From assembly GCA_022823045.1 (NCBI GenBank), contig JAJDXW010000271.1, forward strand, positions 1 to 33,790: a stretch of 33,790 nt of DNA, given 5' to 3'. The notes beneath the pieces were generated by a model, which saw only the letters and a list, made by a program, of their open reading frames with translations, had not been told where the DNA came from and did not search any database. The stretch comes from Gammaproteobacteria bacterium (GTDB lineage Bacteria > Pseudomonadota > Gammaproteobacteria > HK1). A program made the position numbers and the translations under genes. This document shows positions 15,453 through 33,683 of the stretch, in pieces (the first letter of the stretch is position 1; each line of letters begins with the position of its first letter).

Positions 15453-17492
15453 CTACCAGCGGGCGAGCCCGGTGCACATGAGGGCGCCGCTCGGGTCCAC
15501 CTCGATCGTCCAGCCGGGCGGGGCGACGGTGGTGCCCCCCGCCTCCTCGACGATCGCGGGTCCTTCGACCCGGCTCCCGACCGGAAGCGACTCCCGGTCG
15601 ATGACCTCCGTGTCCCGCCACTCGCCGAACCACACCGGCCGGCGTTCAACCACCGGGTCGCCGCCGCCCCGCGGCGCGAAGTCGAGGGCGGGCTGGTCGA
15701 CCCCGCCGATCGAAACGAGCCGGACGTTCACGATCTCGATGTCGTTGCCGGGATCGGCGTAGCCGAAGGTCTCCTCGTGCCGCGCGTCGAACGCGGCCCG
15801 GAGCGCCGTCCAGTCCGGATCCTCGGGGTTCCAGGGGATGGGGAGGGTGAAGGACTGACCGACATGACGAACGTCGAGGGTGAACGCGTGCCGGTGCCGG
15901 CCGCGCTCCACCCCGTCCGCCTCCAGGGTCGCGGTCCCGTCCTCGCGCATCGCCCGCGCGCGCGCCCGCAGCTCGCCGACGGAGAGCTCGGAGACCCGCC
16001 CGCCCCAGGCATCCACCGCGTCGCGGCGGAGATCGGCGAGCATCTGCCCGAGCGCGGAGAGATGACCGGGGAAGCGCGGCACCATGACGCGGGTGATGCC
16101 GAGCTCCTCGGCCACCGGCATCGCGTGCATCGGCCCCGCGCCGCCGAAACCGAGGAGGGTGAAGTCGCGGGGGTCGAAGCCGCGGTGCACCGAGACCTCG
16201 CGCACCGCCCCCGCCATCCTCGCCACCGCGATCCCGAGCGATGCGCTCGCAAGGTCGACGGGGTCGCCCCCTCGCTCGCGCCGCGCCGCGAGCGCCTCGA
16301 ACGCGGCGCGCGCCTTCCCCGCGTCGAGCACGAGCCCGCCCGCAAGCGGGCGCCCGACCGGCAGGCGGCCGAGGAGGAGGTTCGCGTCGGAGACCGTCGG
16401 CTCGGCGCCCCCCCGGCCGTAGCAGGCCGGCCCCGGCACCGCGCCCGCGCTCTGCGGCCCGACCGCGAACGTGCCGTCGGGCTGCACCCACACGATGGAG
16501 CCGCCGCCCGCCCCGATGGTGTGGATGTCGAGCTGCGGCATCTTGAGGGGGAAGGCGTCGATCCGGTTGTCGTGCGACATGCGGGGCGCGAGCCCGTGCA
16601 CGAGGGCGACGTCGGTGCTCGTGCCCCCCATGTCGAAGGTGATGATGTCCCGGGCGCCGGCGCGCTCCGCGACCCGGACGGCGCCGGTGACCCCGCCGAC
16701 CGGCCCGGAGAGGAACGTCGCCGCGCATCGCTCCGAGGCCGCGGCGAGGGTCATCGACCCCCCGTTCGAGCCCATGATGTTGACCGGCGCCGCGACGCCG
16801 CGATCGACGAGCGCGGTCTCGAGCTCGGCGAGATAGCGGCGCATCACCGGGGTGAGATAGGCGTTCAACACCGCCGTCGAGGTCCGCTCGAACTCGCCCC
16901 GCTCGGGGGTGAGGGCGGCGGATTCGGAGATCGGGACGCCGCCGAGGCGCGCCCCGAGCGCATCGGCGGCCGCCCGCTCGTGACCGCGATCGAGGTAGCT
17001 GTGGACGAGCGCGACCGCAATCGCCTCGACTCCCTTCTCGCGGAGCGCGGCGGCGAGAGTGTCGAAGTCGAAGCCGTCGATCGGCCGCACCACCTGGCCG
17101 TCCGCCGCGAGCCGCTCCGGCACCTCGAAGCGGCGGTCGCGAGGGACGAGCGGCGCGGGGCGCTGCCACTCGGGATCGAAGAGCCCGCCGACGAGCCGCC
17201 GCCCCTTGCCGATCTCGAGGAGATCGCGGAAGCCCTCCGTGGTCACGAGTCCGGTCCGGGCGCCCTTGCGCTCGAGGAGGGAATTGGTGGCGATCGTCGT
17301 CCCGTGCACGAACGCCCGGAGCGACTCCGGGGCCAGCCCGAGCGCGGCGAGGGCGTCGAGCACCCCCCGCCACTGCTCTCCGGGAATCGAGGGCACCTTC
17401 GCCGAATGAAGGGCGCCGTCTTCTCCGTACGCGATGAGATCGGTGAACGTCCCGCCGACGTCCACGCCGACGATATGGGACGTCTCGCTCAC
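15453..17492 (-). CDS. hyuA: Hydantoinase/oxoprolinase family protein, subunit A
   Basis: GTG start at 17492: VSETSHIVGVDVGGTFTDLIAYG...FVHGTTIATNSLLERKGARTGLVTTEGFRDLLEIGKG...ITFDMGGTSTDVALV...IGAGGGSIVWV. The track ORF is over-extended to 17729. Confidence 0.93.
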   Translation of the reverse strand: MSETSHIVGVDVGGTFTDLIAYGEDGALHSAKVPSIPGEQWRGVLDALAALGLAPESLRAFVHGTTIATNSLLERKGARTGLVTTEGFRDLLEIGKGRRLVGGLFDPEWQRPAPLVPRDRRFEVPERLAADGQVVRPIDGFDFDTLAAALREKGVEAIAVALVHSYLDRGHERAAADALGARLGGVPISESAALTPERGEFERTSTAVLNAYLTPVMRRYLAELETALVDRGVAAPVNIMGSNGGSMTLAAASERCAATFLSGPVGGVTGAVRVAERAGARDIITFDMGGTSTDVALVHGLAPRMSHDNRIDAFPLKMPQLDIHTIGAGGGSIVWVQPDGTFAVGPQSAGAVPGPACYGRGGAEPTVSDANLLLGRLPVGRPLAGGLVLDAGKARAAFEALAARRERGGDPVDLASASLGIAVARMAGAVREVSVHRGFDPRDFTLLGFGGAGPMHAMPVAEELGITRVMVPRFPGHLSALGQMLADLRRDAVDAWGGRVSELSVGELRARARAMREDGTATLEADGVERGRHRHAFTLDVRHVGQSFTLPIPWNPEDPDWTALRAAFDARHEETFGYADPGNDIEIVNVRLVSIGGVDQPALDFAPRGGGDPVVERRPVWFGEWRDTEVIDRESLPVGSRVEGPAIVEEAGGTTVAPPGWTIEVDPSGALMCTGLARW

Positions 17493-17499
17493 GGCCCGC

Positions 17500-19512
17500 C
17501 TACCGCGGAACGGTGTGCACGGCGCGCACCTCGACCGGGTCACCGGCGTGCGCGCCGAGGGCGGCGAGAGCATCGGCGCTGAGCGCGAGATCGGGGCGTT
17601 CGACGATCCGCGCCCAGCCCCGGAGCGCCGCCCCGCACGCGGGGGTCGCGACCTCGACGAGGGCTCCGCTCTCGACCTCAAGCCGGCGCGCGAGCGCGGC
17701 CGGCAGGCCGATGCAGCGGCGCGGCCCATCGAGGTCCGGCTCGTTCGAGACGGTCACCGGGGCGACGACCCGTTCCGCCCGCAACCGGGCCCGCTCCGCT
17801 TGCGTCGCGTCGCGATCGAAACCGCCGCGGTCGGGCTCGACGACCACCCCGTAGCGCTCGCGCGCCTGCCCGGGGCTGAGATAACCGAGCGCGACGTCAC
17901 CGGCCACCCGGCCGGGGTCCCGATCGAGGGGATCGCCGTATCCACCCCCGCCCGAGGTCTCCATGCGCACCACGTCGCCCGCCTCGAGGGGGAAGCCGCC
18001 GACCTTGCCCGGCACCGGGGACGGCTCGACGGTCTCCCCGCCCCGCACGACCGTGAATCGGTTCGCGGCGCCGCCCACGCCGCCTGCCACCCCGAAGGGA
18101 GGGATGATGTTCTTGTCCGCGAGCACCGAGAGGCTCGCCTCGCCCGCAAGCACGCGCACGTCGCGCCGCACCCCGAGGCCGCCCCGGAACTCGCCGTCTC
18201 CGCACGAGCCCTCCCGCAGGCCGTAGGACTCGATGCGCACCGGGCACTGCGCCTCGATCACCTCCGCGGGCTGGACCGTGTTGAAGTCCCCCTCGGGGAA
18301 TGCGCGCACCCCGTGGTTGCCGTCGGTCCGCCCGGTCGCCCCCGTGCCCGCGGCGGGATACTCGTAGAGGAGGAAGATGCCGTCGCGCCCCGGGTGCGGC
18401 CCGGAGACGTAGACGTGGTTGCCGCCGCCCTTCAGATCCCCTACCCGCCTATCCGGCAGCGCTTGGCCGAGGGCGGAGACGACGAGGCCGCACATGAGCG
18501 CCCGGCACTCGACCATCCCGCCGCAGGGCGCGGGCAGGGTCGCGTTGAGGAAGCTTCCGGGCGGGTTCACGATCTCGATCGGAGTGAACGAGCCGTGGTT
18601 CACCGGGGTGTCGGGGTCGAGGCACGACTTGACGATGCTCGCCACCGCGTTGAACGCCATCGCGGGTCCCACGTTGGTCGGCCCCTTGGTCTGGGGCGAA
18701 GAGCCGGTGAAGTCGGCGACGAGACGGTCGCCGTCGACGGTGAGGGCGAGCCGCCCGCGAAGCGGCGCCTCCCCGTGCCCATCGCTGTCGAGATAGCCCT
18801 CCGCGTGCCAGGTCCCGTCCGGGATCCCCGCGATGCGCTCGCGCATCACCTTCTCGGCGCGGCCGATGAGCTCCTCGATTGCCTCGAGCAGGGCCGCGCC
18901 GCCGAAGCGCACGAAGAGCCGTGCGACGTGCTCCGCCGCCTTGCGCGACGTCCCGTACATGGTGTTGAAGTCCCCGCGCCGCTCGCGGGTGATGCGCATG
19001 TTGTCGAAGAGGAGGCTCAGGAAAGCGTCGTTCATCCGCCCCCGATCGCAGATGCGGGTGGGCACGATGCGCAGCCCCTCCTGGTAGATCTCCTGCACCC
19101 GGCCGGAGAGGCTCCCCGGGGTCATGCCGCCCACGTCCCCCCAGTGGCAGCGGGTCGCGGTGAACATCGCGAGCCTTCCCTCGTGGAAGACCGGGAAGAG
19201 CATGAGCACGTCGTTGAGGTGGGTGCCGCCCGTGTACGGGTCGTTGTGCAGGAAGATGTCGCCCTCGTGGATGTCGGCACCGAAGGTCCGCACCACCTCC
19301 GTCGTCGAGTAGGGCACCGAAAAGTTGTGGATGGGGTTGTCGTCGACGCCCTGGGCGATGAGCCGGCCGTCGGGCGCGACGAGGGCGCACGAGAAGTCGT
19401 GCCCCTCGTAGATGATGGACGAGTACGACGAGTGGATGACGTTCGCCCGCATCTCGTTGACGACCGCCACCAGGGATTCGCGTATCAGCTCGAGCCGGCC
19501 GATCTCCTGCAT
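17500..19512 (-). CDS. hyuB: Hydantoinase B/oxoprolinase family protein
   Basis: ATG at 19512: MQEIGRLELIRESLVAVVNEMRANVIHSSYSSIIYEGHDFSCALV...HNDPYTGGTHLNDVLM...HWGDVGGMTPGS...ETSGGGGYGDPLDRDP. Ends 7 bp before the hyuA start. Confidence 0.94.
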   Translation of the reverse strand: MQEIGRLELIRESLVAVVNEMRANVIHSSYSSIIYEGHDFSCALVAPDGRLIAQGVDDNPIHNFSVPYSTTEVVRTFGADIHEGDIFLHNDPYTGGTHLNDVLMLFPVFHEGRLAMFTATRCHWGDVGGMTPGSLSGRVQEIYQEGLRIVPTRICDRGRMNDAFLSLLFDNMRITRERRGDFNTMYGTSRKAAEHVARLFVRFGGAALLEAIEELIGRAEKVMRERIAGIPDGTWHAEGYLDSDGHGEAPLRGRLALTVDGDRLVADFTGSSPQTKGPTNVGPAMAFNAVASIVKSCLDPDTPVNHGSFTPIEIVNPPGSFLNATLPAPCGGMVECRALMCGLVVSALGQALPDRRVGDLKGGGNHVYVSGPHPGRDGIFLLYEYPAAGTGATGRTDGNHGVRAFPEGDFNTVQPAEVIEAQCPVRIESYGLREGSCGDGEFRGGLGVRRDVRVLAGEASLSVLADKNIIPPFGVAGGVGGAANRFTVVRGGETVEPSPVPGKVGGFPLEAGDVVRMETSGGGGYGDPLDRDPGRVAGDVALGYLSPGQARERYGVVVEPDRGGFDRDATQAERARLRAERVVAPVTVSNEPDLDGPRRCIGLPAALARRLEVESGALVEVATPACGAALRGWARIVERPDLALSADALAALGAHAGDPVEVRAVHTVPR

Positions 19513-26814: not shown

Positions 26815-27471
26815 ATGAAGCGTCACAGCAGGATCCCCACTTTCCTGATCGTTGCGGCTCTCTGGTGCGGCGCGGCCCACGCGCAGAATGCCCCCGCCGA
26901 GGAGAGGGACGAGGTCGCGTTCCGGCCCTGGATCGGCACCCTCGGCGTTCACTTCCAGTCCGAGCACCTGTTCGAGGCGCCGGCCCGCGTCCCCTTCCCC
27001 GGTGCTCACGGCTCCGGCCGGGAGATTTCAAGCCAGGCCAACGCGGTGGGGCTGCCCGGACTCGGGCTCGGCGGCGTGTGGCAGCCGTTCCGGAACGGCT
27101 TCCAGCTCAACTTCGCGATGTATCTCGACCCGGTCGAGTCGGGCGAGCCCGAGGGCTTCCGGTCGCGGGCGCTTTCCGACCCCGGCTTCCCCTCCGATGA
27201 TCTCGTCTCGTTTCCCCTGGATTTCGAAGCCGTTTCGTACGTGGGTCTCGGCTGGAAGACGAACGGCCCGGGGCTGGGGGTGAACCTCGATGTCGGGGCT
27301 TTCCTGTCCGAGGGGTATTCCCTGCGCGGCGATGCCTGCCTCGGCTCCGACCCGACTCCGTCCGAATGCGGCGCCGCGTCGCTCGGGAGCAGGCGCGGCA
27401 AGCTGCCCGGATCGTTCCGCGGGTTCGAGTGGTATCCGGTCGTCTCGCTCGGGATCGAATATCGCTTCTGA
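26815..27471 (+). CDS. Predicted exported outer-membrane beta-barrel protein, unknown family
   Basis: MKRHSRIPTFLIVAALWCGAAHAQNAPAEE... signal peptide with AHA|Q cleavage-like site, alternating-hydrophobicity strands, ends ...WYPVVSLGIEYRF with a C-terminal Phe. Confidence 0.7.
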   Translation: MKRHSRIPTFLIVAALWCGAAHAQNAPAEERDEVAFRPWIGTLGVHFQSEHLFEAPARVPFPGAHGSGREISSQANAVGLPGLGLGGVWQPFRNGFQLNFAMYLDPVESGEPEGFRSRALSDPGFPSDDLVSFPLDFEAVSYVGLGWKTNGPGLGVNLDVGAFLSEGYSLRGDACLGSDPTPSECGAASLGSRRGKLPGSFRGFEWYPVVSLGIEYRF

Positions 27472-27598
27472 TCGCCCGGGTCCGGATGGAAGGCCCGGGC
27501 CACTCTCTTGAACCGGCGATGACGAGAGGTCCCGCTCGCGGGGCCGCCTCCCCGGCGAAGCCCCTGCCGCCCATCCGCCGGCCGCCCGGCCCCCATCG

Positions 27599-30500
27599 AT
27601 GACGGGGTACTACCTGCCGGGCTCCGCCGCGCTTCCCGGGTTCCGGTTGGGGAAGGTTCTCGCCCGGCTGCGGCGGGAGCTGCCCGCGCTCATCGACGGG
27701 GCGGCGTGGGCCGCGTACTTCGTCGATGCGGCGGCCCCGCTCGGCGAGGAAGAGCTCGCCGCCCTCGCCCGCCTGCTCGACGCCTCCCTCCCGGTCGGGA
27801 CCTCCGGGCGCGCCTCCGATGCCCCTTCCCCCGCGGCGGCGCACGGCGCGAAGGCCGGATCCGCGGCGCCCCGCACCGAGACCTCCGGGTCCCCGGATCT
27901 CCCCGGCCGCGCCAGGGTCCTGGTCACCCCTCGGGCGGGGACGATCTCGCCGTGGTCGAGCAAGGCGACCGACATCGTCCGCAACTGCGGCTTCGATCGG
28001 GTGCGCCGCGTGGAGCACGGGACCCTCTGGGTCCTTTCCGGGGTGAACACCCTCACCGAGGGGGCGCTCGGGACACTCCACGACCGCATGACCGAGCGCG
28101 TCTCGCCCCTCGGCGAGCTGCCGGTCCCGGACTCGCGGTCCGCGGCCTGCACCCGGGACCTCGCGGTGCCCCCGGATCTCTTCCGCGAAACCCCGCCGGA
28201 GCCGCTCGTCCGGATCTCCCTCCGCCACCAGCCGGAGCGCGCCCTTCGCGACGCGGACCGGCGGCTCGGACTCGCCCTCAACGAGGACGAGGTCCGGTGG
28301 CTCCGCGACCGGTTCGGCGCGCTCGGCCGGGATCCGACCGACGCCGAGCTCATGATGTTCGCGCAGGCGAACTCCGAGCACTGCCGGCACAAGATCTTCA
28401 ACGCTTCCTGGACGGTGGACGGCCGTCCCGCGGAGCGGTCGCTCTTCGACATGATCCGCTACACCCACGCGGCGAGCCCCGGACGGGTGCTCTCCGCCTA
28501 CCACGACAATTCCGCGGTCATCGAAGGCGGTCCCGTGGCCTGGTTCGGTCCGGACCCCGCGACCGGAGTCTATCGCCATGCCGCGGAGCGGTCCGGGCTT
28601 CTCATGAAGGTGGAGACCCACAACCATCCCACCGCGGTCTCCCCCTTCCCGGGCGCCGCGACCGGCTCCGGCGGCGAGATCCGGGACGAGGCGGCCACCG
28701 GACGCGGCGCGGAGAGCCGGGCCGGACTCGTCGGGTTCAGCGTGTCCTCCCTTCGCATTCCGGGCTTCGAGCAGCCGTGGGAGGCGGACGGTCCCGGCAC
28801 CCCCCCCCACATCGCGAGCGCTCTCGACATCATGCTCGATGCCCCCATCGGCGCCGCCCGGTTCAACAACGAGTTCGGACGGCCCGCGCTCTGCGGCTAC
28901 TTCCGCACCTTCGAACAGGCGAAGGAAGGCGAAGGGGGGACGTGGCACGGCTACCACAAGCCGATCATGATCGCGGGGGGGATGGGCCGGATCCGCGCCC
29001 GGCACGTCGCGAAGGCGGTCCTGCGGCCGGGAACGCTCATCGCGGTGCTGGGCGGCCCGGCCATGCTGATCGGGCTCGGCGGAGGGGCCGCCTCCTCCAG
29101 CGTCGTCTCCGGCCCCGGCGCGGACCGCCCCAGCGCCCCGCGGGAACGAGCCCCCGTGCGCGACGACAGACCCGAGCCCGACGACGTTCGCCGACCCCGG
29201 AGGCTCGACCTCGCCGATGACGGCGGCTCGGAAGTCTCGGACGATCTTCGCGGCCCGGAGCTCGACCGTGCCGAACGCGGCCTCTCGAGCGTTGCGAAGG
29301 ACCTTCACCGCCAGGAGCTCGACTATGCCCGGCACGGCCCTTCGAAGGTCGCGGACGAGCTTCACCGCCGGGAGCTCGACTTTGCGTCCGTTCAGCGAGA
29401 CAACGCGGAGATGCAGCGCCGCGCCCAGGAAGTCATCGACTCGTGCACCCGGCTCGGAGACTCGAACCCGATCCTCTCCATTCACGACGTCGGAGCGGGA
29501 GGGCTCGCCAACGCGGTCCCGGAGCTCGTCCACGCGGCGGGGCTCGGGGCGCGCGTGGACCTCGGGGCGATTCCGACCGCGGACCCCGGCCTGAGCCCGA
29601 TGAAGCTCTGGTGCAACGAGGCCCAGGAGCGCTACGTCCTCGCCCTCGATCCGGCCGAGCGGCCCCAGGTCGAATCGATCTGCCGGCGCGAGCGTTGTCC
29701 GATCTCCGTCATCGGCGAGGTCACCGAAGCGCCCCGCATCGAGGTGCGGGACTTCAGACGCGGCGAACCGGCCGTCGACGTTCCCCTCGACCTCGTCCTC
29801 GGGGACGCTCCCCGCCTCGCCCGCGAGGCGCGGCACGCCCCGGACGCGGCACGAGAGGCGGTCGCGCTGCCGGCCGGCATCGACGCCATTTCGATCCTCG
29901 GCCGGGTGCTGCGGCTGCCGTGCGTCGCCGACAAGACGTTCCTCGTCACCATCGGCGACCGCAGCGTCTCGGGCCTCGTCGTCCGGGACCAGATGGTCGG
30001 CCCCTGGCAGGTCCCGGTCGCCGACTGCGCGGTCACCGCCGCCGACCACCTCGGCTTCGCGGGAGAGGCGATGGCGATGGGCGAGCGTTCCCCTCTCGCG
30101 GTCCTCGATCCCGGCGCCTCGGCCCGCATGGCGATCGGGGAGGCGCTCACGAACCTCGCCGCGGCCGGGGTCGGGGCCCTGTCGGAAGTCGTGCTCTCCG
30201 CGAACTGGATGGCGGACGCGGGCCGGGACGACACCGCCCTCCTCGACGCGGTCCGGTCCGCGGCCCTCGAGCTCTGCCCGGAGCTCGGGATCCCCATACC
30301 GGTGGGCAAGGACAGCCTCTCCATGCGAACCGCATGGCGCGACGGCGGCCGCGAGCGCGCGGTGAGCGCGCCGGTGTCCCTCGTCGTGTCGGCATTCGCG
30401 CCGGTCGGCGACGTCCGGCGCGCGCTCGTTCCGATGCTCGTGAAGGAAGCCGAAAACCGCCTCGTGTTCGCCGACCTCGGACTCGGGCGCGACCGGCTCG

Positions 30501-31942
30501 GGGGCTCCGCCCTCGCCCAGGTCTTCGGGGTCCGTGGAGGCGATCCGCCGGACGTCGAAGCCCGGGTGCTGCGCGAATTCTTCGATGCGGTGCAGGCCCT
30601 CGTCGCGGAGGGGCTCGTGCTCGCCTACCACGATCGATCCGACGGCGGACTCGCCGCCACCCTCTGCGAGATGGCGTTCGCGGGACGGACCGGGCTTCGC
30701 ATCGATCTCACCCCGCTCGGCCCGGAGCCCCTGCCCGCCCTCCTTTCCGAAGAGCTCGGCGCGGCCCTGCAGGTGCGGGCCCGCGACGCCCCCCGGGTCC
30801 TCGAACGGCTGCGGGCCATCCCGCGCCTCGCGCCGCACGTCCATTCGATCGGTGAGGCGCACGAGGGCGACCGGATCCGTTTCGAGCACCGGGGCGCCAC
30901 CGTCCTCGACGCCGCCCGCGTCGATCTCCACCGGGCCTGGTCGGAGACGAGCTGGCGGATACAGGCCCTCCGCGACAAGCCGGAGTGTGCCCGCGAGGCC
31001 TTCGACGCCCTCCTCGACGAAGCCGACCCCGGCCTCGGGGCGAGCCTCGCGTTCCCGTACGGACGCATCGCCGCGGAGCCCGGGCGCGCGACGGGCGGGG
31101 CGGCGAACCCGGAACGTCCGGCGGCCGCCGCCGCGGGCGTCCCGTCGGACCTCTCGCCCAGCCTCTCGCACGGCCGCCCGCGCGTCGCGATCCTCCGCGA
31201 GCAGGGGGTGAACGGACACCGCGAGCTCGCCGCCGCCTTCGATCGGGCGGGATTCGAAGCGGTCGACGTCCACATGACCGACCTGCTCGAGGGCCGGCAG
31301 ACCCTCGATCGCTTCACCGGGCTTGCCGCGGGAGGAGGCTTCTCCTACGGCGACGTGCTCGGCGCCGGCGGCGGCTGGGCGGCGGGGGTGCTCCATCGCG
31401 AGGGGCTGCGCGAGGCGTTCCGCGCGTTCTTCGCGCGCCCGGACACGTTCACCCTCGGGATCTGCAACGGCTGCCAGATGCTGGCCCGGCTTGGCTCTCT
31501 CGTCCCGGGGGCGGACGCCTGGCCGCGCTTCCTCCCCAACCGCTCGGGGCAGTTCGAGGCGCGCCTGGTGATGTGCGAGATCCTCGACTCGCCCTCGCTC
31601 TTCTTCCGGGGGATGGCGGGCTCGAAGCTGCCGGTGGTGGTGGCCCACGGAGAAGGGCGGGTCGAGACCGGCCCGGCGGTCCCGGCGCCCTGCCTTCGGT
31701 TCGTCGACAACCGCCACCGGCCGGCGGAACGCTACCCCGCCAACCCGAACGGCTCTCCGGGCGGCCTCACCGGGTTCACCACCGGGGACGGCCGCGCGAC
31801 GATCCTGATGCCGCATCCGGAACGCACGTTCCGCACGGTGCAGCTCTCCTGGCATCCCCCGGGGTGGGGAGAGGAGAGTCCCTGGATGGAAATGTTCCGT
31901 AATGCCCGAAGATGGTGCGAGGAGACGGCGAGCGGCCTATGA
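27599..31942 (+). CDS. purL: Phosphoribosylformylglycinamidine synthase (large single-chain PurL)
   Basis: Motifs: [105 protein letters not shown] (glutaminase). 1447 aa. Confidence 0.96.
29172..29399 (+). repeat. 57-bp tandem repeat array (about 4 units) inside purL
   Basis: The segment (a/g)(a/g)gCTCGAC recurs at 29201, 29258, 29315 and 29372, exactly 57 bp apart. Protein units: ..[18 protein letters not shown] / [19 protein letters not shown] / [19 protein letters not shown] / [19 protein letters not shown]. Confidence 0.88.
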
Positions 31943-31990: not shown

Positions 31991-32053
31991 CGCGGACTTC
32001 ACCGGCGGCGCCGTCCGTCTCGCGGCCCGTACGCTGAAAGGAGGATGAGACCC

Positions 32054-33022
32054 ATGCCGATCAGGACGTCACGCCACGGACCGGGGCGCATCCGCCCCTC
32101 CGAGATCACTCCGAAGGACGTCTGGCTCGACCGCCGCACGCTGCTCCGGAACGCCGGGTTCGGGCTCGCCGCGCTGGCCGCCCCGGCCGCCTTCTGGCCG
32201 CGGCTCGCCCACGCCCGGCGCAAATTCGACGACCTTGTCAAGTCGAAGTGGACGGTCGACGAGGAGCCGACCTCTCTCGACGACATCACCTCCTACAACA
32301 ACTTCTACGAGTTCGGGACCGGAAAGGGCGATCCGGCCCGCTACTCGGGAGACTTCAAGCCGCTCCCGTGGTCGATCCGCGTCGGGGGAGAGTGCGAGAA
32401 GCCGGGGGTCATCGACTACGAGGACCTCATCGGCTCCTTTGGCGTCGAGGAGCGGGTCTACCGTTTCCGCTGCGTGGAGGCATGGTCGATGATCGTTCCC
32501 TGGGCGGGGATCCAGCTCGACCGGGTGCTCGCGCGCTTCCAGCCGACCTCGAAGGCGAAGTACGTCGCGTTCGAGACCGTGTACCGGCCGGAGGAGATGC
32601 GGGGGCAGCAACGCGGCTTCCTCGACTGGCCCTACGTCGAGGGGCTTCGCATCGACGAGGCGATGCACCCCCTCACCCTGCTTGCCGTCGGCATTTACGG
32701 CGAGGAGCTTCCGAACCAGAACGGCGCTCCGGTGCGCCTCGTGGTGCCGTGGAAGTACGGGTACAAGAGCATCAAGTCCATCGTCTCGATCACCTTCACC
32801 GAGACGGAGCCGCCGACCACCTGGAACATCCAGGCCCCCCACGAGTACGGCTTCTACTCCAACGTGAACCCGGAGCGGTCCCACCCCCGCTGGAGCCAGG
32901 CGCGGGAGCGCCGGCTCGGAGGTGGGTTGTTCGCGAAGAAGATAGCGACCCTCAAGTTCAACGGCTACGAGGAAGAGGTCGGGCCGCTCTACGCCGGCAT
33001 GGATCTCATCCGGCACCACTGA
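32054..33022 (+). CDS. msrP: Protein-methionine-sulfoxide reductase catalytic subunit MsrP (YedY)
   Basis: [22 protein letters not shown] Tat-like signal; [37 protein letters not shown] (molybdopterin Cys), [20 protein letters not shown] lies at good spacing from the ATG at 32054 and abuts the track ATG at 32045. Confidence 0.95.
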
Positions 33023-33032
33023 GGCCGGAGCC

Positions 33033-33683
33033 TTGGCGCGCGCCGCCGCCCTCCTGCGCCCGGGATTCGGGTGGCTGAAGGCGGCGGTATTCCTCGCCGC
33101 GCTGGTCCCTCTCGCGGCCATCGCGGTCCGTGCCTCGTCCGGTGACCTCGGTGCGAACCCGGTCGAGACCATCCTCCATCACTTCGGGGAGTGGGCGCTG
33201 CGGCTGATGCTGGTGACCCTCGCGGTGACCCCGCTGCGCCGGCTCACCGGGTGGAACCAGGCGGTGCGCCTGCGCCGGATGCTGGGACTCTTCGCCTTCT
33301 TCTACGCGGTGCTCCACCTCGCGACCTACGTGGTCCTGGATCGGTCGCTCCTCCTCTCGGAAGTCCTCGAGGACCTGACCGACCGGCCCTACATCATGGT
33401 GGGCTTCGCCGCATTCGTGCTGCTCGTGCCCCTCGCCGCGACCTCGACCAACGCCATGGTCCGGCGGCTCGGGGGGCGGCGCTGGCGACAGCTTCACCGG
33501 ATCGTCTACCTCGCCGCCGCCGGCGGGGTGATCCACTTCTGGTGGCTGGTGAAGGCGGACGTCCGCGAGCCTCTCATCTACGCGGCGGTGCTCGCCCTCC
33601 TCCTCGTCCTCCGCCTCCCGCCGGTGGTGCCCTTCCTGCGCTCCGTGCCCGCCCGTCTCCGCCGCCCCCCCACGCCCGGCTAG
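33033..33683 (+). CDS. msrQ: MsrQ (YedZ) heme-binding membrane subunit
   Basis: TTG start; NPVETILHHFGEWALRLMLVTLAVTPLRRLTGWNQAVRLRRMLGLFAFFYAVLHLATYVVLD...RRLGGRRWRQLHRIVYLAAAGGVIHFWWLVKADV. Confidence 0.94.
   Translation: MARAAALLRPGFGWLKAAVFLAALVPLAAIAVRASSGDLGANPVETILHHFGEWALRLMLVTLAVTPLRRLTGWNQAVRLRRMLGLFAFFYAVLHLATYVVLDRSLLLSEVLEDLTDRPYIMVGFAAFVLLVPLAATSTNAMVRRLGGRRWRQLHRIVYLAAAGGVIHFWWLVKADVREPLIYAAVLALLLVLRLPPVVPFLRSVPARLRRPPTPG

Follow-up and report, generated by a model that had tools for sequence, protein, structure and literature searches.

A 57-bp repeat expansion of varying length, confined to one genus, in a PurL loop whose length is normally fixed

The enzyme considered here belongs to the large-type PurL, or phosphoribosylformylglycinamidine (FGAM) synthetases (TIGR01735, NF003672; Salmonella structure 1t3t), with which it shares its domains, invariant motifs and predicted fold, but the link between two of those motifs spans 91 residues rather than the canonical 8. 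Two lines of published work bear on such an insert. According to the accessible part of PMC2639597, Legionella pneumophila carries intragenic tandem repeats that vary between strains; the in-frame coding units and differing copy numbers described there are also found at our locus, whereas our array sits in the gene for a conserved metabolic enzyme, its units have aged and diverged, and the variation lies between species rather than strains. Conserved signature indels, in turn, serve as lineage markers, and the part of PMC9318685 available to us names both such indels and PurL. Like them, the insert sits at a defined site in one clade only; unlike them, it varies in length within that clade and is internally repetitive. 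The long polar inserts in PurL of a sister genus (g2) provide a third comparison, in the same enzyme and family, but these occupy other loops and no 57-bp unit was noted in them by eye. A literature search on low-complexity inserts in bacterial enzymes found no match with the terms used.

An otherwise ordinary PurL with an in-frame 57-bp array

The window, by which we mean the whole 33,790-nt stretch of DNA analyzed, carries purL at 27599–31942 on the plus strand, encoding 1447 residues in a frame that is intact in the list of open reading frames. Over its whole length the protein exceeds both curated NCBIfam cut-offs (NF003672, 1705 bits against 783; TIGR01735, 1586 against 1123), which identifies it as a large-type phosphoribosylformylglycinamidine synthase. 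The Pfam domains FGAR-AT_N, FGAR-AT_linker, FGAR-AT_PurM_N-like, AIRS_C and GATase_5 all score above cut-off and the AIRS N-terminal domain falls slightly below (22.9 versus 24), so that the N-terminal, linker, duplicated AIRS-type synthetase and glutaminase domains are accounted for. In a 66-sequence alignment, the insert is bordered on its N-terminal side by a conserved glycine-rich motif (29051–29098, plus strand), with G281, G282, P283, I287, G288, G290, G291, A293, S295 and S296 invariant, and on its C-terminal side by the native LDFASVQR motif (29375–29404, plus strand), with L389, D390, S393, V394, Q395 and R396 invariant. Antisense to purL runs a 1582-codon open frame (27107–31855, minus strand), probably a side effect of codon usage at high G+C, and 3' of the gene (32045–33683) lie frames that by eye resemble an MsrP/MsrQ (YedY/YedZ) pair.

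The expanded link occupies residues 501–591 (29099–29371, plus strand) between GGGAASS and ELDFASVQ, a gain of 83 residues. With unit boundaries set in register with the native motif, three clear units of 57 bp follow one another on the plus strand, u2 (29222–29278), u1 (29279–29335) and u0 (29336–29392), each recovered by Tandem Repeats Finder (TRF), by a direct-repeat search and by unit-to-unit comparison. The last of them, u0, ends in the native ELDFASV, as originally predicted, and its counterpart is present in both sister species of the genus, with 10 and 12 of 19 residues identical. Upstream lies a decayed unit, u3 (29165–29221, plus strand), identical to u0, u1 and u2 at 24–32 of 57 nucleotides and sharing only 3–6 of 19 residues with them. 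The original prediction of about four units thus stands for three, with a weak fourth; its coordinates leave out some 22 residues at the N-terminal end of the insert (29099–29164, plus strand). This part is unlike the units, being either non-repetitive or wholly decayed, and resembles the insert of one sister species (genome G002) in spots, such as PSAPR.

That the 57-bp array is real follows from several measures. TRF reports 2.9 copies of 57 bp at 29220–29385 with 72% matches and a score of 157, against scores of at most 50 for each remaining array in the window, and the direct-repeat search yields three 69-nt copies at an exact 57/57 spacing with 71–72% identity to the reference copy. Self-identity at an offset of 57 across 29164–29398 is 0.63, a value reached in none of 20,000 codon shuffles and not matched at any offset in 3,000 shuffles. 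The array therefore consists of in-frame, head-to-tail units above chance, as expected of an intragenic tandem repeat, and these are mutually about 67–72% identical. Units u0, u1 and u2 share GAGCTCGAC letter for letter and repeat the native codons for ELD(F)A, consistent with a duplication that extended into native sequence. The old link was not simply copied to give the unit, since about 12 of the unit's residues match nothing clear in the native protein. The insert is rich in charged residues (23% DE and 23% RKH, with 18% hydrophobic, versus 13%, 14% and 29% for PurL as a whole), and a Pfam search with the inserts of all three species of the genus gave no match at E values up to 1.

Link length among relatives

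How fixed is this link elsewhere? The original prediction held that proteobacterial PurL normally has a short one, and among 111 PurL loci with a readable link (relatives plus 80 GTDB contigs among the matches listed, some genomes appearing twice) the distance from GGGAASS to LDFASVQR is exactly canonical in 104; nine further loci gave no readable link. The seven non-canonical loci comprise two overlapping records of one family member, G003, with four additional residues, and five records from the three genomes of the genus. All three of these are expanded, by 83 residues in the window, 65 in G002 and 45 in G001, the last a single-contig genome. Elsewhere in the family, 14 further genomes lack an expansion apart from the four residues in G003; for several of them the canonical length was taken from the adjacency of two matches rather than from sequence. 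The insert is therefore neither common among PurL homologs nor present as an equally long, repeat-free link in close relatives outside the genus; it behaves as a clade-specific signature indel and at the same time shows the length variation between related genomes that is typical of tandem repeats. In a draw of 274 genomes from the class, 235 matched the segment adjoining the link; this search reached only the adjacent segment and so was not used for link length.

Traces of the same periodicity remain outside the window. Self-identity of the G001 insert peaks at an offset of 57 (0.54), in accord with in-frame tandem duplication involving native coding sequence as originally proposed, and the G002 insert has no clear peak there (0.414 at 57). 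Two units can be discerned in G001 and about two weak ones in G002, next to the three clear and one decayed in the window. Three genomes with expansions of differing size, including one assembled as a single contig, point to an origin at the stem of the genus, and the simplest history suggested by these sequences would be a single expansion in the ancestor of the genus, after which units were gained, were lost or decayed.

Structure, constraint and origin of the insert

We modeled residues 205–1150 with AlphaFold2 from the 66-sequence alignment, in which the other 65 sequences lack such an insert. The model (pTM 0.86) has a body mostly at pLDDT 70–98, and Foldseek matches it to Salmonella PurL with a TM score of 0.85–0.87 normalized by query and about 49% identity across the fragment. 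The insert region (residues 497–598) lies at pLDDT 28–56 and contains a single weak, low-confidence helix at residues 564–591 (fragment residues 360–387). In a control model of a PurL of canonical length the corresponding loop (fragment residues 289–314) is likewise below pLDDT 50; a few other stretches of the control are also low, so that low confidence is not specific to the link loop, nor does low AlphaFold2 confidence amount to proof of disorder. Given the low confidence of the canonical loop, the insert most likely extends a PurL loop that was already mobile.

Mutant structures of Salmonella PurL include deletions of residues 450–451 (6jt8) and 452–453 (6jt7) and the point mutants D464A and D464A L465A (6jt9 and 6jta). 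With chain numbering and an apparent eight-residue tag offset, all of these sites would fall within the link loop, and a two-residue shortening of the Salmonella chain coincides with the matching stretch. A paper from 2020 reportedly deals with loop function in Salmonella PurL. The accessible part of PMC3815217 (PLoS One) contains no discussion of the link loop.

Between species of the genus, dN/dS is 0.50, 0.63 and 0.48 in the insert and 0.24, 0.25 and 0.22 in the body, the insert values deriving from only 52–63 codons at dS 0.8–0.9 with an uncertain alignment inside the insert; amino acid identity is 44–46% in the insert versus 76–81% in the body. Comparison of the window's units by the NG86 method gave dN/dS of 0.36/0.46 (u0–u1), 0.46/0.39 (u0–u2) and 0.51/0.27 (u1–u2), unit-to-unit ratios that scatter from about 0.6 to 1.9 on very few, noisy sites and reveal no consistent purifying signal. 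The insert is under relaxed constraint. With a dN/dS about double that of the body, no consistent purifying signal between units and the low pLDDT, we find no support for the suggestion that a helical repeat is under selection.

We favor, with considerable confidence, an explanation in which one tolerant, flexible loop grew by lineage-specific, in-frame tandem duplication in a PurL that is otherwise ordinary and intact. An assembly artefact or sequencing error would be one alternative, and the window's own genome is indeed split into 432 contigs, with contamination estimated at 7.3%. However, three independent assemblies carry an expansion, the two others with diverged inserts of their own and one on a single contig, which argues against misassembly; the units are only about 67–72% alike, unlike duplication errors in assembly, and the purL frame is open. 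We regard an artefact as extremely improbable. A mobile in-frame repeat had also been suggested, and the in-frame insertion within a conserved gene would fit the arrival in purL of such a repeat or of a palindromic element like those of Rickettsia. Yet neither DNA nor protein searches of the own genome found a second copy of the unit, the best non-self hits having E values of 0.003 (short GC-rich DNA matches) and 0.07 (protein), and the repeat search returned zero inverted pairs at the array. With no dispersed copies, inverted repeats or palindrome, the unit lacks the hallmarks of the Rickettsia type and does not behave as a dispersed element, and both the native motif codons within the units and the differing insert lengths speak against a mobile origin, which we consider very unlikely.

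A selected functional segment merits more thought. The insert might act as an interaction tether or as a lid on the active-site loop, its length tuning PurL activity, ammonia coupling or the enzyme's assembly with further purine enzymes. All three species retain it at one site between invariant motifs, the best units share a recurring L/H-R-x-x-L-D pattern, and the Salmonella deletion and point mutants with solved structures (6jt8, 6jt7, 6jt9, 6jta) would map to the link loop. The low interspecies identity and doubled dN/dS of the insert point the other way, as do lengths that differ by 18–38 residues between species, and we judge a selected segment unlikely. Its retention in all three species nevertheless means that the insert may not be purely neutral.

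In the model of loop growth that we prefer, the short mobile loop between GGGAASS and LDFASVQR would have lengthened in the ancestor of the genus, where a 57-bp stretch that overlapped the native codons for ELDFASV underwent in-frame tandem duplication; slipped replication or unequal recombination is the presumed cause. The units would afterwards have drifted in number and sequence between species, most likely leaving a charged, mainly disordered surface segment. We propose that the enzyme tolerates the insert because the loop was already mobile, and predict that activity is retained. The mechanism is likely an ordinary one, and the surprise its site in PurL.

Loop growth elsewhere in the family

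The PurL proteins of the sister genus g2 (G010, G016, G015, G013 and G003; loci L041–L045) carry long, polar, low-complexity inserts in other loops: one site follows GGYFRTLE, another is the linker that leads to the glutaminase domain, and G013 has a further insert ahead of AYHDRSDGG. In carB, all three genomes of the genus (loci L209–L211) have a small, genus-specific and variable Gly/Glu-rich insert after LKKLGFSD and an additional short insert in SCYEGDGF. In a comparison of six genes chosen for convenience rather than as a survey, ileS matches in the genus are some 20–30 residues longer than controls and rpoB matches of G001 and G002 13–18 residues longer, both by span and unaligned, the own-genome rpoB being split over two contigs and left outside the length comparison; gyrA and purF show no such lengthening in the genus. 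G013 carB has an insert of its own of about 40 residues. The rpoB matches of G003, G010, G013 and G015 span about 90–95 residues more than those of G016 and controls, which could reflect a known type of RpoB lineage insert.

Could a genome-wide excess of tandem repeats be the cause? The own genome has 2.0 TRF arrays scoring at least 100 per 100 kb, compared with 2.75 in G001, 4.75 in G015 and 2.0 in the control G035; being no richer than this one control, it led us to reject that idea. Of the own genome, 350 kb were sampled for arrays, and two that rank among the strongest lie on contig C27 (L133), both in Thr/Pro/Lys-rich frames: 4.9 copies of 99 bp (17429–17916) and 6.3 copies of 42 bp (18403–18666). 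G015 has arrays at 183 and at 122 bp, both divisible by 61 (L180:10823–13480; translations RFIPARAGNT and GSSPLARGT), which look like a type I-E CRISPR array.

One may speculate that the expansion is a lineage-specific disordered regulator of tunable length, placed in the mobile loop through which both halves of PurL chemistry are coupled, in a family that enlarges several central-enzyme loops; we think this quite unlikely. In an enzyme that is otherwise ordinary, the purL insert enlarges a loop whose length is normally fixed, and it does so in one genus and to differing extents. Since link length is fixed in nearly all loci, the borders are invariant and two-residue deletions exist in Salmonella, the natural series of 45, 65 and 83 additional residues directly tests what extra length a mobile PurL loop can accommodate. 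It also offers an example, traceable across species, of a protein enlarged through in-frame duplication, and it points to a bacterial family in which the loops of central enzymes may enlarge repeatedly.
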